DNA from: Candidatus Roslinia caecavium
Lineage (GTDB): Bacteria; Bacillota; Clostridia; Monoglobales; Monoglobaceae
Length of the DNA: 52,439 bases
NCBI GenBank assembly: GCA_904419955.1
Contig: CAJFTO010000018.1
Coordinates: forward strand, 1-52,439
Direction: 5' to 3'
This document shows, in pieces, positions 18,483 to 51,410 of the stretch; position 1 is the first letter of the stretch, and the number at the start of each line of letters is the position of its first letter. The notes beneath the pieces are model-generated. The model did not search any database. It had not been told where the DNA came from and saw only the letters and a program-made list of their open reading frames with translations. The position numbers and the translations under genes are program-made.

Positions 18483-18869
18483 ATGACGATCGCCGAGGTG
18501 AGCAAAAAGTATGAACTTTCGACGGATACGCTCAGATATTACGAACGAGTCGGTTTGATACCTCCGGTTCCGCGAACAAAGAGCGGGATCCGCGACTACA
18601 ACGAGGAAGCGTGCGGTTGGGTCGGATTCGCCAAATGTATGAGAGACGCGGGGATACCGGTGGAAGTTCTTGCAAAATACGTCGCCCTGGTCAAAGAGGG
18701 CGATAGGACCCAAGCCGACCGTATAGCGATACTTAAGGAGCAAAGAGACCTTCTGGCTCGGCGCATAGCCGATATGCAGGAGACTCTTAAAAGATTGGAT
18801 CACAAGATAGAAAACTATAATTCAACCATGGCCGACGCCGAACACAAACTCGGCGAGTCGGCGATCTAA
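18483..18869 (+). CDS. MerR-family transcriptional regulator (AdhR/NmlR-like)
   Basis: A 128-residue regulator. The N-terminal winged helix (about 1-70) reads MTIAEVSKKYELSTDTLRYYERVGLIPP, with the family's RYYE turn, followed by a dimerising coiled coil (about 80-118). No metal-binding cysteines occur at the C terminus, so it is not a mercury- or copper-sensing type; it resembles the AdhR/NmlR branch that responds to aldehydes or electrophiles (family knowledge). Site B upstream fits an autoregulated or nearby target promoter. The ATG follows AGAGGTGAATTAAT. A terminator at 18887 closes the gene. Confidence 0.88.
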   Translation: MTIAEVSKKYELSTDTLRYYERVGLIPPVPRTKSGIRDYNEEACGWVGFAKCMRDAGIPVEVLAKYVALVKEGDRTQADRIAILKEQRDLLARRIADMQETLKRLDHKIENYNSTMADAEHKLGESAI

Positions 18870-18886
18870 AACAATTTAAATGAAGT

Positions 18887-18926
18887 CGGGGATATTCGTA
18901 TCGAGTATCCCCGTTTTAATTTTTTC
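18887..18926 (+). terminator. Intrinsic terminator after MerR gene
   Basis: CGGGGATA (18887-18894) pairs with TATCCCCG (18906-18913), with an inner TCG/CGA pair, then two T-runs. Confidence 0.88.
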
Positions 18927-19002
18927 TAATAATGAATTACGATTGCGTCGGACCCGGGCGCGGCTCTAAAACAATATGGCCTACCAACGTTATCCCGGCG
19001 GC

Positions 19003-21093: not shown

Positions 21094-21170
21094 TGGTGGG
21101 CCTTCAGGGACTCGAACCCCGGACCTACCGGTTATGAGCCGGTTGCTCTAACCAACTGAGCTAAAGGCCC
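21094..21170 (-). tRNA. tRNA with CAU anticodon (elongator Met or lysidine Ile)
   Basis: A 77-nt cloverleaf with encoded CCA. Acceptor stem GGGCCTT/AAGGCCC, D arm GCTC-AGTTGGTTA-GAGC, anticodon arm ACCGG-CTCATAA-CCGGT, T arm with TTCGAGT. The paired first base excludes an initiator tRNA. The 5' part (CCTTTAGCTCAGTTGGTTAGAGC) resembles Firmicute tRNA-Ile2(CAU), which is read as Ile after TilS modification, so Met versus Ile is left open. Confidence 0.95.
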
Positions 21171-21386
21171 TAAACAGCAACAAACCTATTATAGTACAAA
21201 TTTATCGCGTTGTCAAGAGTTTTTTCAAATTTTTCATATTAATTTTTATTTTTGATCTAACTCTTAATTACATCATATGAATACATTCTGTTTTACCTCG
21301 CCGCGCGGCGTTCTTTTCCATAGCGTTAGGTATAAATACGGACGATCCGGATCGTTCGACCGTCCGCGTTCAGCCTATGCAATTTT

Positions 21387-34300: not shown

Positions 34301-35881
34301 TTATTTCGCGTATTCTATAGCTCTGAGTTCGCGTATTACATTAACTTTTATCTGACCGGGATATTCCATGCTGTTCTCGATCTTTTTAACGATCTCTTTC
34401 GCCATCAATACCGTCTCGTCGTCGTTTACAACGTCCGCTTTGACCATGATCCTTACTTCGCGTCCCGCCTGGATCGCGTATGAACGTTCTACGCCCTCGA
34501 ACGAATTGGAGATCTCCTCAAGCTGTTCGAGTCTCTTGATATAACTCTCTAAGTTCTCGCGTCTCGCCCCCGGTCTCGCCGCGGAAATTCCGTCGGCCGC
34601 CTGAACGAGGCAAGCTTCTATCGAGTTAGGTTCGATATCGCCGTGGTGCGCGAGTATCGCGTGAACGACCTTGCCGTTTTCTTTATATTTCTTAGCTATA
34701 TCGCCGCCGATAGTCACGTGCGAACCCTCGACCTCGTGGTCTACGGCCTTACCGATATCGTGAAGCAGTCCGGCGCGCTTTGCAAGAGCCACGTCCGCGC
34801 CGAGCTCAGCCGCCATCAAGCCGGCTATATGAGACACCTCGATCGAATGTTGAAGGACGTTCTGCCCGTAGCTGGTCCTGTATTTAAGTCTTCCCAGCAG
34901 CTTTATAATCTCGGGGTGCAGTCCGTGTACGTTAGTCTCAAACGCGGCCTTTTCGCCTTCCTGCTTGATTATCTGGTTTACTTCTTTCTTGGATTTTTCA
35001 TACATCTCTTCGATCCTGCCCGGATGTATTCTTCCGTCGGCGATCAGCTTTTCGAGAGAGCGTCTCGCTATCTCGCGCTTTACGGGATCGAAGCCCGACA
35101 GAACGACGGCCTCCGGAGTATCGTCGATTATAAGGTCGATGCCGGTAAGCGTTTCAAGCGTTCTTATGTTTCTGCCCTCGCGGCCTATTATGCGGCCTTT
35201 CATCTCGTCGTTAGGCACTTGCACGACGGATACGGTTGTCTCGGTGACGTGATCCGCGGCGCAGCGCTGGATAGCTCCGGTGATTATGTTCTTGGCCTTC
35301 TGTTCGGCCTCTTCCTTAGCCTGTTCCTCGACGCTCTTGATAAGCAGAGCCGCGTCGTGCTTGACGTCGTTTCTTACCTCGTCGAGCAGCATATCCTTAG
35401 CCTGAGACGCGGTCATTCCGCTTATCTTCTCAAGCTGGGCGATCTGAAGTTTTTTTACGCGCTCGACCTCGGCCAATTCCTCCTCGGCTTGGTTCAGCTT
35501 TTTGTGGATCTGCTCTTCTTTTCTCTCGAGCAATGAGTTCTTTTTATCTATTGTATCCTCTTTTTGCTGTACTCTTCTCTCCTGCCTCTGCAGTTCGTTC
35601 CTTCTGTCCTTGATCTCTTTTTCCAGTTCATTTCTTGATTTATGTATTTCTTCTTTTGCTTCCAAAAGTTTTTCTTTTTTTATGTTCTCGGAATCTTTTT
35701 CCGCCTTGTCGTTCGCTTCGTCTATGATACGCTGAGCTTCTTCTTCCGCGCTGCCTATCTTGAGCTCGGCGAACTTTTTCCTATATGAATAGCCGTATCT
35801 GAAAGAAAGAAACGACGCGGCCGCCGCTACTATCAGCATAGCTATCACTATTAATACAACACCTAAAGTACCTATATTCAA
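34301..35881 (-). CDS. rny: Ribonuclease Y
   Basis: A 526-residue membrane-anchored endoribonuclease that starts decay of many mRNAs in Firmicutes. Order: a membrane helix (about 7-28), a long coiled coil (about 35-200), a KH domain with [17 protein letters not shown] (about 228-245), and an HD domain with [13 protein letters not shown] (about 371) and a following AILAHHGD. Length is typical. The start is TTG at 35881, with GGGAGG only 3 nt upstream, so the exact start is not certain; GTG or ATG codons a few residues inside are alternatives. A TTGACT-17-TATAAT promoter lies at 36037-36065, back to back with the large RNA promoter. Confidence 0.96.
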
Positions 35882-36036
35882 GCGCCTCCCATCCTAATTA
35901 TTTATACTTGAAACTCTTAAATTTTAAACCCGTCAGGCCGATTTAACCCATTCAAGTACATTGAAAAATATATATCTGAAAACATACAAGTATCAAGAAA
36001 CTAAGAGTGAATAGTAAAGCATAAATTCACGATTTA

Positions 36037-36065
36037 ATTATACACAGTTTTTGCTTAAAAGTCAA
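36037..36065 (-). promoter_or_regulatory. SigA-type promoter of rny
   Basis: Minus strand TTGACT (36065-36060), 17-bp spacer, TATAAT (36042-36037). A leader of about 150 nt follows. Confidence 0.82.
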
Positions 36066-36381
36066 TATATTTGTATACAAATCATTGAAATTGATACGCA
36101 AACGTAAATTTGATAAAAAATCACTGAATTTCAATAACGAAAATTGATCTTGCGTTTCCGGGGCGAAGCCGAAAGTTAAGCGCTTATCGGCGTTTTCTCG
36201 TGGAGCGCAAGAAGCTTGCGGAGAGAGGGCGATTTTTGCGATATCTATAACTTATTGCTAAATGTTCATAGGCGTGTAGGGTTTTTAAAATACGATTTAT
36301 AGAATAGAAATCCGAGCGTTTTGGGAAAATAGATGTTTTTTAAAATTCCAAAATTTTTTATAAAAAATCTACAAAAAAGTC
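36066..36381. other. Intergenic stretch between divergent promoters
   Basis: About 315 bp with no gene, RNA or clear regulatory dyad that I recognise; AT-rich near 36330-36380. Confidence 0.4.
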
Positions 36382-36410
36382 TTGACAATTAAAAAGAAAG
36401 CTGTTATAAT
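36382..36410 (+). promoter_or_regulatory. SigA-type promoter of the large RNA
   Basis: TTGACA (36382-36387), 17-bp spacer, TATAAT (36405-36410): both boxes and the spacing match consensus. The start is predicted near 36417. Confidence 0.88.
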
Positions 36411-36668
36411 GTAATCACAAAGAAGAAAGGTAAGTAAACACAGATATAATAATAAAAATTATATTTCTTTACTTAACAAGTATTTTTTGTAAGGCTTATA
36501 ACAAAAAGATATTGCTGTTTGTAAAATGCGCTTTATCTTTCGTCGTAAGCTAATATAAAACACTTTGAGACGTTTTCCTTAAAGGCCGTTATTTTATGAC
36601 GTGATTTACTAAAAAGGTCAGGTTTAACGTATCGGCGGAGGAAAGTATTTTAACTGGAGGTGGTCGAA

Positions 36669-36725
36669 GTGTTTTATGATGAATCAGAAACGCCGCTCCA
36701 CCTTAACTTCAGCTACTTGGCGTAA
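36669..36725 (+). CDS. Possible 18-codon micro-ORF inside the large RNA
   Basis: GTG start 5 nt after GGAGGTGG, encoding MFYDESETPLHLNFSYLA. The ribosome site can pair with CCACCT inside the frame (36698-36703), and the start lies in an RNA hairpin, so it would be occluded when folded. No family is recognised. It may be chance or a translated element that senses or refolds the RNA. Confidence 0.25.
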   Translation: MFYDESETPLHLNFSYLA

Positions 36726-37642
36726 GCTGTATTTACAAAGTGAGCCGGATTCATGAGAACAACTTACAATTCGGTATATAAGCTTATACGAGAACAACTC
36801 CAAGCTATAGAATGTATCGCTGTTATATACGGCTAAAGAGCAGTTAGACTGGAAAGTTTAAAAACGTATATAATATGTTTTTAATTATAGAAACTGGCTT
36901 TAAAAAGCGCCGGGTTTCGGAAGTGGACGTAGATTCGAGAGTTTTGCTAAAGAGAAAGGCAAAATGATAAGCATGTTTAAGGTATATTAAGTAATATGCC
37001 AAAACAGGGATGTTTGATTACGAGGTTTGGTTTGAGATAGGATTTTAAATACTTACAGGGGTCGCTTGTAAAGTTTAAAATAACGACGATGATCCAAAGA
37101 ATCGATGATAAGAGATCGAAATGCAGCGGTTATCGTAATCTCGAATTAAAGATTTATTCTAAATAAGTCCGCGGTGCGTTGGAAATATAAAAACGTATGC
37201 TATGCGCGGATCGTAATAAATATCCTGCGAAACTATAATATATAGAAGTAGCGGTTTAATAGAATTTACAAAGGTTTTGGCAGTGAAGATGGTAAGTAAA
37301 TACCATGTATTTCAGATTCAGAGTTATTGATTACCTTTAAAAGGAAACTCGGGATAGAATATATATCTAACGATGATATATATTTGACAGAATTATATGG
37401 ATGTTGTATTGAGGATAAAGAATATAAGATAAAGAGGTTCATATAATACATTCTAAAGTTTCCGTATTGAGTATCTTTATTGTAAGGTAGAGAGTGAGAT
37501 AAATACAAAATGAGTTGTATTGTGAGACAATAAACGATACGTTTGACGTTCCGGATAATATAGTTTTCGGAAATGGATAATCTGAGTTATAGAAGTACAA
37601 AGATCACTGTTTAGCGAGTGGTAATTCAAGAATTCATTATAT

Positions 37643-37671
37643 GAGACGGCTGATTTAGCCGTCTCTTTTTT
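37643..37671 (+). terminator. Terminator of the large RNA
   Basis: GAGACGGCT (37643-37651) pairs with AGCCGTCTC (37657-37665) on a GATTT loop, followed by six to seven T. Confidence 0.92.
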
Positions 37672-37729
37672 GATCAAATAACTCGACCGGCGCGCAAAAC
37701 TTGACGTTCGTCGCGGCGGAGCTGTAAAC

Positions 37730-37775
37730 TAAAAAAAATAAAGCGGATCTCGATTAAAACTCGGATCCGCTTTTT
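37730..37775. terminator. Bidirectional terminator between large RNA and MerR gene
   Basis: AAGCGGATC (37741-37749) pairs with GATCCGCTT (37764-37772); a T-run follows on the plus strand and an A-run precedes it, so it also serves the minus-strand MerR gene. Confidence 0.82.
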
Positions 37776-37784
37776 ATAAACAAA

Positions 37785-38243
37785 TCAATCTTCGCGATGC
37801 ATTCTTTTGAGGCTCTCGCACGCGGCGCGAAGTTCCTCGGGGACGTCGCTAATGTCCATATCGCGCATGACGTCGGTCGTTCCGGCTTCCTTGGCGGTTT
37901 GGTAATACCAGCATTTGTAGTCGAGTATGTCGAGCGTGTTTTGAAGCTGACGCATCTGCTCTTTAACGTTTTCGCGGCGCTTTAAAAACAGCTCCAAACG
38001 TTCGTCTATCGTCTCGTCGCCCTTTAAGGCCATATCGATAAACCGTTTTATATCCTTTATCGGCATACCGGTTTTTTTAAGGCAGTCTATCACAAACAGC
38101 CATTCGAAATCTTTTTCCTGAAACATTCGTATCCCGCCGCCCGATCTCTCGACGAACGGGAGCAGTCCTTCTTTATCGTAGTACCTTATAGTTGAAGGCG
38201 CGACGCCCAAAACTTTGGCGGTTTCGCCGACCGTATAAACCAT
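37785..38243 (-). CDS. MerR-family transcriptional regulator
   Basis: A 152-residue regulator: a winged helix YTVGETAKVLGVAPSTIRYYDKEGLLPF (about 2-30), a wing with GGIRMFQEKDFEWL, and a dimerisation coiled coil (about 75-125). It lacks metal-site cysteines apart from single ones at Cys64 and Cys115 (approximate), so thiol or aldehyde sensing is possible. It is divergent from an iron alcohol dehydrogenase with a MerR-type promoter between them, the AdhR-adhA layout. The start is ATG 38243 behind GGAGG (38259-38255); a longer frame adds 14 residues without a ribosome site. Confidence 0.9.
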   Translation of the reverse strand: MVYTVGETAKVLGVAPSTIRYYDKEGLLPFVERSGGGIRMFQEKDFEWLFVIDCLKKTGMPIKDIKRFIDMALKGDETIDERLELFLKRRENVKEQMRQLQNTLDILDYKCWYYQTAKEAGTTDVMRDMDISDVPEELRAACESLKRMHRED

Positions 38244-38300
38244 ATATCCGTATACCTCCGTTTCTGAGCAAATAAAAATAAACATTTTCTATAAAAGTTC

Positions 38301-45987: not shown

Positions 45988-46111
45988 GACGGGCTTAGGA
46001 CGGACAAACCGCGTATAGCCGGGATTTTTTCATAATACCGAAAAAGATGAGGTAATTTTCGGCAAAGTTTGTGTAGATTATATAAGATTGAGAATAGCGC
46101 AAATTTTGGTA

Positions 46112-46140
46112 TTGACATATAATATTATAAGCGCTATAAT
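46112..46140 (+). promoter_or_regulatory. SigA-type promoter of amtB-glnB
   Basis: TTGACA (46112-46117), 17-bp spacer, TATAAT (46135-46140), followed at once by a terminator-type hairpin. Confidence 0.85.
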
Positions 46141-46146
46141 GCAGTT

Positions 46147-46194
46147 GTTGAACAAAGAGGTTCATGGCTAGAGAAGCCGTGGACCTCTTTTTTT
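46147..46194 (+). ncRNA. Promoter-proximal terminator (attenuator) of amtB-glnB
   Basis: The predicted transcript meets, within about 8 nt, a 16-bp hairpin (46154-46169 with 46075-type partner at 46175-46190, G-U pairs included) on an AGAGA loop, then a seven-T run. Unless terminated, transcription continues to amtB. It is therefore either an attenuator needing an antiterminator or a separate 48-nt RNA. Confidence 0.65.
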
Positions 46195-46197
46195 ATT

Positions 46198-46226
46198 CGC
46201 TGAAGAAGGGCATACCTTCTGAAGCG
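46198..46226 (+). other. Hairpin with tandem GA mismatch in amtB leader
   Basis: CGCT-GA-AGAAGG-GCATA-CCTTCT-GA-AGCG: two stems separated by opposing GA dinucleotides that can form sheared G-A pairs, a common RNA recognition element. It follows the attenuator directly. Confidence 0.55.
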
Positions 46227-50963: not shown

Positions 50964-51310
50964 TGGAGCGTGGTAGATGGTTGCGCGCGTCCGTTTTGGG
51001 CGCGTGAGGAAAGTCCGAGCTCCGCAGGGCAGGGTGCAAGCTAACGGCTTGTGGAGGCGACTCTAAGGAAAGTGCAACAGAAAGATACCGCCGCGGGATC
51101 TAGCCCGCGGTAAGGGTGAAAAGGCGAGGTAAGAGCTCACCCGCCTCTATGGAGACATAGGGGCGCTGTAAACCCCACCCGGAGCAACGCCTGACCGGGA
51201 GACTAAGCTTGCCCGGCATCTCCCAAGATTGGCGGCTGGAGGCGCGCGGCGACGCGCGTCCAAGATAGATGACCATCCTAATGACAGAACTCGGCTTATT
51301 CCACGCTCCA
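50964..51310 (+). ncRNA. rnpB: RNase P RNA (class A)
   Basis: The terminal helix P1 TGGAGCGTGG (50964-50973) pairs with CCACGCTCCA (51301-51310). Conserved elements are seen in order: GAGGAAAGTCCGAGCTCC, AGGGTGC, ACAGAAAGATACCGCC, GTAAACCCCACCCGGAGCAACGC, and TAGATGACCATCC followed by ACAGAACTCGGCTTA. It is the catalytic RNA of tRNA 5' processing. Length about 347 nt, class A type rather than the Bacillus B type. Confidence 0.96.
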
Positions 51311-51410
51311 AACGTAGATGTTAGGGATTATGTATTAGAAGTTAGGCGGTGAAACGAGCCGCTTTAACGCCGAACTCTAACGTTTGTAAAATGGAATAAT
51401 TTGAAATCCT

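Follow-up and report, generated by a model that had tools for sequence, protein, structure and literature searches.

A candidate giant structured RNA gene, so far an orphan, between rny and merR in a relative of Monoglobus

Giant ornate RNAs of bacteria and the rny-merR locus

According to a survey of 50 genomes, in which a motif of more than 350 nucleotides (nt) counts as large, large bacterial noncoding RNAs (ncRNAs) without a known function are rare (PMC11109978). The closest described counterparts of the element treated here are the ornate RNAs OLE, ROOL and GOLLD. As far as the accessible portions of the literature go, GOLLD is a giant ornate RNA of bacteria and phages, of unknown function, with many members above 800 nt (PMC12286853); ROOL is a large ornate RNA, likewise of unknown function (PMC12286853); and OLE is a large ornate RNA of Bacillota that is a component of a ribonucleoprotein (RNP) and forms an RNA-only dimer in vitro (PMC12286853 among the sources). 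All three were reported in 2025 as ordered RNA-only complexes (PMC12286853, partial text). The present analysis concerns a stretch of 52,439 nt from Candidatus Roslinia caecavium (contig CAJFTO010000018.1, positions 1 to 52,439; hereafter the window) and, within it, the region between rny (34301-35881, - strand) and merR (37785-38285, - strand). An earlier note, made from the letters alone, had proposed a very large structured ncRNA at this place, possibly of a new class. The core of that proposal, with a promoter and a terminator of its own, no Rfam match and the predicted fold, is strongly supported by tests on the single sequence; a new class is not shown. The region is very probably a giant structured RNA gene, for the present apparently an orphan, and with high confidence a stand-alone noncoding RNA gene.

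Comparison with Rfam release 15 (4227 families), at gathering thresholds and with cmscan at E values up to 10, was a check proposed in the earlier note. The region had no match at gathering score, and at E up to 10 there were four sub-threshold, chance-like matches, none of them to OLE, ROOL, GOLLD or introns; thus, the RNA is not recognisable as any of these or as another catalogued RNA. With GOLLD it shares the giant ornate style, but the GOLLD model is unmatched and the candidate is about 450 nt longer than 800 nt. Nor is the phage, prophage or tRNA-island setting of GOLLD found, since the candidate adjoins rny, merR and an iron alcohol dehydrogenase (Fe-ADH) gene, with no phage family seen by Pfam among 34 open reading frames (ORFs) of the window; the Rfam scan of the window gave one tRNA, at 21097-21170. 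ROOL is comparable as a large ornate RNA, but its model is unmatched too, and the candidate is about twice as long if the unchecked figure of about 580 nt in the earlier note is taken. OLE resembles it as a large ornate RNA of Bacillota, yet the candidate is longer and does not match the OLE model. The usual neighbour of OLE is the gene of the OLE-associated membrane protein, whereas the immediate neighbours here, to which this comparison was confined, are the RNase Y and MerR genes. Group I and group II introns are long multi-domain RNAs that fold autonomously; unlike them, the candidate is without a match to an intron core in Rfam (E up to 10) and has no sense ORF of at least 40 amino acids. 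The claim that it exceeds all three ornate RNAs in length holds against OLE, for which about 600 nt is given in the partly accessible literature, and against GOLLD on the bound of 800 nt, and for ROOL it is tied to the unchecked figure. Two traits of large ornate ncRNAs are found at this locus, namely, a stand-alone unit without a protein gene, as read from sequence signals, and extensive, defined secondary structure, as predicted from a single sequence. The accessible part of the open-licence literature on large ornate RNAs and on noncoding RNA of Monoglobus contains no description of this RNA, and none of the lengths met there reaches 1.25 kb.

Predicted transcription unit and fold

A sigma70-type promoter and an intrinsic terminator have the same orientation and enclose about 1.25 kb (Table 1). 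Both signals, including the 17-bp spacing of the consensus boxes, had been pointed out before and were found at the places named. A/T tracts immediately 5' of the promoter may constitute an UP element. The RNA is not the leader of merR because that gene lies on the opposite strand and the terminator intervenes. Between promoter and terminator no sense-strand ORF of at least 40 amino acids is present, which agrees with the earlier statement that the approximately 1255 nt hold no protein gene. Four antisense ORFs of 52-80 amino acids lie in the predicted transcript, one of them extending a few bases beyond its end. For three of them, the longest included, Pfam gave nothing at E <= 1; the fourth had a match at E 0.013 that fails the curated cut-off. 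On these results the idea of a decayed protein gene was rejected. The weak small-ORF candidate (Table 1), for which Pfam also gave nothing at E <= 1, is probably not real.

The fold was computed for positions 36415-37642 (1228 nt, terminator excluded), with dinucleotide shuffles as reference. The energy of the + strand is -321.0 kcal/mol, compared with -255.2 ± 7.3 kcal/mol for the shuffles (z -9.1), none of the 60 being as low. Order is equally outside the range of 15 shuffles: 274 pairs have a pair probability (P) above 0.9 (56-153 in the shuffles), the mean positional entropy is 0.476 (0.80-1.45), and 59 pairs span more than 200 nt (0-53). Helices of the latter span have mean P values of 0.86-1.00, and one of them bridges more than 900 nt. 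Where the earlier note had counted more than 15 readable helices, 47 with at least four pairs and pair probabilities above 0.5 are predicted, the terminator counted. The fold is robust against exchange of some energy sets; with the 275 confident pairs of the Turner 2004 fold as standard, 274 are kept by Turner 1999 and 270 by Andronescu 2007. Extension of the segment to 36015-37771 keeps 258 of the 275 pairs, and trimming to 36677-37642 keeps 205 of 205. Five isolated sub-domains have z values of -2.5 to -4.6, and the first part at the 600-nt scale has z -4.7; for the RNase P RNA of the window (bacterial class A, 349 nt, found at 50965-51313 with 290.6 bits in the Rfam scan) the value is -4.6 (30 shuffles).

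Table 1. Predicted features of the RNA locus, with positions in the window
Feature	Position	Strand	Remarks
sigma70-type promoter, TTGACA-17-TATAAT	36382-36410	+	12/12; TG ahead of -10 box
Predicted transcript, about 1255 nt	36417-37671	+	start site inferred from promoter position
5' hairpin element 1	36417-36490	+	36417-36424/36483-36490, 36430-36438/36468-36477, 36442-36450/36458-36466; mean P 0.87-0.97
5' hairpin element 2	36493-36551	+	two main helices, mean P 0.97 and 0.95
Domain I, self-contained 119-nt hairpin domain	36557-36675	+	z -3.1, 0/200 shuffles
Weak small-ORF candidate	36660-36725	+	GTG at 36660 (21 codons) or 36669 (18 codons); GGAG/GGAGG upstream
Closing stem P1, 5' strand	36677-36698	+	fold model
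Domain II, branched, with twin AACAA-loop hairpins	36706-36924	+	fold model
Twin adjacent hairpins	36744-36775, 36781-36806	+	each with GAGAACAACT as short stem and loop AACAA
Domain III	36925-37269	+	closed by 36929-36936/37262-37269 (mean P 0.97); long arm 37007-37226
Domain IV	37279-37611	+	closed by 37279-37286/37604-37611; contains 37343-37349/37457-37463 enclosing two hairpins
Closing stem P1, 3' strand	37616-37639	+	fold model
Intrinsic terminator, 10-pair stem (37643-37665) then TTTTTT	37643-37671	+	sequence; mean P 0.96

According to the fold model, the architecture would consist of a closing stem, P1, around domains II, III and IV, preceded on the 5' side by three hairpin elements. 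P1 is composed of the helices 36677-36685/37630-37639 (mean P 0.86) and 36692-36698/37616-37622 (mean P 0.99), with a span of more than 900 nt. Elements 1 and 2 jointly (36417-36551) have z -4.5, and z values of -4.6 and -3.7 are found for the sub-domains 37026-37150 of domain III and 37343-37463 of domain IV (0/200 shuffles in each case); for the sub-domain 36725-36834 of domain II the value is -2.45 (3/200). Of the nested helices described in the earlier note, 37343-37348/37458-37463 is recovered with P of about 0.97 and with the two long hairpins inside (37357-37385 and 37392-37447). The hairpin 37289-37306 is recovered as well (mean P 0.92), but not the helix 37270-37275/37333-37338 that was said to enclose it; its letters are complementary, yet P is 0.0 at the three pairs checked.

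GAGAACAACT occurs exactly twice in the window, at 36755 and 36790, and of the repeated words it is the one noticed in a like structural setting twice, which suggests a repeated module. Three repeated words, among them this one, had been taken to make loop contacts; the words are present, but the excess of repeated 10-mers is marginal (8 pairs, with 2.9 ± 2.3 expected by chance and equalled in 13 of 300 shuffles), and the contact idea was rejected. GNRA-type loops, also claimed before, amount to a single case, GUAA at 37482-37485, among the 17 hairpin loops predicted with confidence. C is indeed scarce, with two C in 37381-37440, but folding is not the richer in G-U pairs for it: 63 of 409 pairs are G-U, compared with 54-65 of 352-398 in 15 shuffles, and G-U-rich folding was abandoned as a signature. 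Enrichment of unpaired A (0.512 versus 0.490 ± 0.015 in 20 shuffles) is likewise not notable, and inspection by eye, without computation, revealed no pair of complementary hairpin loops that could kiss. Nine perfectly complementary bases, AGAATGTAT and ATACATTCT (36802-36817/37446-37461), connect the domain II junction with domain IV; this pairing may be a pseudoknot or may be due to chance.

Several results weigh against a giant structured RNA gene. The - strand, too, folds lower than all 60 of its own shuffles (z -3.7). The Langdon 2018 energy set keeps 155 of the 275 confident pairs and 24 of the 59 with a span above 200 nt, and addition of a 200-nt flank on both sides leaves 192 of 275. 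Pairs spanning more than 500 nt number 14, inside the range of 15 shuffles (0-53); taken with the other counts by span, this means that very long pairs occur in ordinary numbers, and what is special is total order and energy. Local 200-nt windows in the region (n=11, z -6.4 to +0.1) are unremarkable in places when set against 250 background windows (mean z -0.5, standard deviation 1.4; 16 shuffles each); much of the signal resides in longer-range pairing. For the last 600 nt, z is -3.3, which does not fall outside the control windows (n=26; 12 shuffles each), whose values run from -3.9 to +2.2. The full-length z has its own shuffles as sole reference, not other loci of 1.2 kb. The perfect promoter is unremarkable here, the window containing five 12/12 sites (at 21216, 27346, 36382, 41248 and 46112), so that the lineage may often use consensus promoters; promoter rarity was consequently dropped as an argument for an RNA gene. 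Finally, no convincing relative was found by BLAST, by two covariance models built from the single sequence or by exact patterns in genomes, phages, plasmids and viral contigs; with no homologue there was no covariation test, and the term class is therefore not earned.

The lowest z among the 200-nt background windows belongs to 46015-46214 (-6.0 and -5.9 on the two strands, 16 shuffles). Its first 146 nt reach just -1.3 and -1.5, which makes small-sample noise or a wider element the probable explanation.

Search for homologues

The genome sets searched (100 genomes, being its own and 99 relatives; 51 of the order; 391 of the class; 398 of the phylum) each count the genome of origin and overlap one another. 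The collections are limited and partly masked, and records nearest to the source genome may be left out; congeners, the likeliest carriers of a homologue, may therefore be hidden. In the family set of 38 genomes including its own, the source genome is the sole representative of its genus. No divergent sequence of known presence, RNase P for instance, was run through the same homologue searches as a positive control. Hence, the outcome of the search that the earlier note had named as a check, namely, no homologue in the sets searched, is absence of evidence and not disproof.

Within its own genome the sequence is single-copy, BLAST giving the self match and six short matches at E 0.14-0.88 and at most 34.6 bits. 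In the 100 genomes there were two non-self matches at E <= 1e-3; both were rejected as homologues, one lying in an AT-rich stretch beside apparent tRNA genes (judged by eye) and the other in a stop-to-stop frame of 413 amino acids. The 51 order genomes and the 398 phylum genomes returned the self match alone. The 391 class genomes returned one further match (E 2.2e-6), in which 44 bases align with the AT-rich 5' hairpin; this match was discarded as it is inside a 146-amino-acid stop-to-stop frame and its alignment is unextended save for two weaker short pieces. Additional samples of 270 and 239 genomes, in which no genome with a known match to the query is included, gave nothing at E <= 1e-5. 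In phages and plasmids BLAST found nothing at E <= 0.01, and sub-domain queries at E <= 10 found short matches only.

Covariance models were prepared from the single sequence for domain II (R1) and for the domain III arm (R2). With R1, the 391 class genomes gave the self match alone at E <= 0.01 under stricter filters. R1 and R2 together gave, in the 38 family genomes, the self match and seven matches at E 0.09-0.88 and, in 80 rny loci taken from genome contigs, eight matches at E <= 5, the best at 0.11. Four of these 15 weak matches were inspected and rejected, all of them lying in stop-to-stop frames (108-924 amino acids). In the same 80 loci nhmmer found nothing at E <= 1, and blastn returned two short pieces (E 0.079). 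At the corresponding position in 29 other family genomes, the regions upstream of rny (up to 1.5 kb, two of them shorter) yielded nothing with nhmmer and, with blastn, three short pieces (E 0.004-0.53).

In viral contigs the GAGAACAACT twin pattern was met in 16 stretches, which were dismissed because all are overlapped by stop-to-stop frames of 119-641 amino acids, several of these being protein repeats; four further patterns gave none there, and a stricter twin pattern gave none in genome contigs. Three 14-15-mers led to 222 viral stretches. In the 203 of them that were examined, nhmmer found nothing at E <= 10 and blastn found short pieces only (best E 0.012); the covariance models, applied to 100 (R1) and 80 (R2) of the 203, had a best E of 0.33.

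Gene neighbourhood and interpretation

The product of rny carries RNase Y domains according to Pfam, and the Fe-ADH gene lies beyond merR; families assigned to neighbouring ORFs are RNase Y, MerR, Fe-ADH, GHMP kinase and cyclophilin. Measured over best segments, the RNase Y protein shares 81-85% identity with its counterparts from Ructibacterium gallinarum and from uncultured Monoglobus metagenome-assembled genomes, the nearest named records, which places the host among the relatives of Monoglobus. The names of these records suggest that it came from the gut. In composition the RNA region is set apart from its surroundings, with a GC content of 33% compared with 49% across the window and a G/C ratio of 1.74. 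The rny neighbourhood differs in relatives; merR or ADH was near rny in none of 25 loci (E <= 1e-20), these being 25 of the 80 rny loci, with flanks of at most 6 kb, some cut by contig ends. Integrase, transposase and reverse transcriptase families were, like phage families, absent from the 34 ORFs examined with Pfam, which are a part of all ORFs of the window.

A promoter facing rny (11/12, - strand) is located at 36037-36065 and, by its position, would place about 150 nt of untranslated leader ahead of the rny coding sequence. Between it and the RNA promoter, a strong GC-rich hairpin (CUUGCG...CGCAAG, + strand) occupies 36148-36220; the segment 36140-36240 has z -2.1 on the + strand (5/200 shuffles) and -0.05 on the - strand, and 235 bases around the hairpin match only themselves within the genome (E <= 0.01). 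An AT-rich inverted pair of 13 nt, 92% complementary, is found outside both ends of the RNA unit (36354-36366/37771-37783) and is of low complexity and probably due to chance. Further away, a second MerR-type ORF (18483-18869) has two stable hairpins at and past its end, within 18815-18960 on the + strand (z -3.5, 1/200 shuffles); part of this stretch may be a terminator.

In the mechanism proposed, RNA polymerase would start just past 36410 and stop at about 37671, yielding a single RNA of about 1255 nt. This RNA would fold as one well-defined multi-domain body, in which P1 would join distant stretches around domains II-IV; the two 5' hairpin elements and domain I would precede it. It would be the final product, stable in the cell, and would act as a particle, be it alone, as a homo-oligomer or together with proteins, by likeness to OLE, ROOL and GOLLD. 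A stand-alone RNA gene whose product is such a stable scaffold particle is the preferred reading, with a probability of roughly 0.55. Granted an RNA gene, the scaffold role taken by itself falls somewhat short of an even prospect, and that the RNA is the first member of an undescribed giant class of about 1.25 kb, with novel architecture and function as an RNA-only or RNP machine, can be put forward tentatively.

The main rival, albeit an unlikely one, is a structured RNA that regulates by base pairing with mRNA or by protein sequestration, perhaps with a dual function through an ORF of 18-21 codons. Such a role would suit a transcription unit that stands alone and several A-rich loops, as well as the GTG at 36669 that opens 18 codons eight bases downstream of GGAGG; however, this frame is judged ordinary and is without Pfam match, and a closing stem of more than 900 nt with three large domains is judged to exceed the needs of a pairing regulator. 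The ornate layout and a size above, yet nearest to, that of OLE, ROOL and GOLLD would be compatible with a known large RNA, these three or an ORF-less group I or group II intron, in very divergent form or as a decayed remnant. This is assigned a small probability in view of the four sub-threshold Rfam matches, none of which concerns these RNAs, and of the lack of reverse transcriptase, transposase and phage families among the ORFs examined; for a remnant, moreover, so ordered an ensemble would be unexpected after decay.

The chance is slim that the RNA belongs to a mobile or retro-type element, newly acquired by the lineage and of use to the element, not to the cell. That it was not found in the other 37 genomes of the family, under the thresholds applied, would accord with recent arrival, as would the rny neighbourhood unlike that of relatives, the deviating composition and the inverted pair outside both ends. 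Against it stand the single genome copy, the phage, plasmid and viral collections without a match and the missing integrase, transposase and reverse transcriptase families, while the inverted pair is of low complexity and could be chance. Least probable, and strongly disfavoured, is an intergenic spacer, AT-rich and structured by chance, that happens to be flanked by an unrelated promoter and terminator. The failure to find a homologue in the sets searched, the commonness of consensus promoters in the window and the low GC content would be expected of a spacer, whereas a folding energy matched by none of 60 dinucleotide shuffles and an order approached by none of 15 would not; the far stronger z on the promoter's own strand (-9.1 versus -3.7) also speaks against it.

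If the reading as a giant structured RNA gene is true, a longer, unrelated, single-copy and chromosomal example would enlarge the set of giant bacterial RNAs. Comparative screens, which depend on homologues, can then overlook giant RNAs of narrow lineages, and ordering statistics of single sequences would offer a route to further orphan RNAs.
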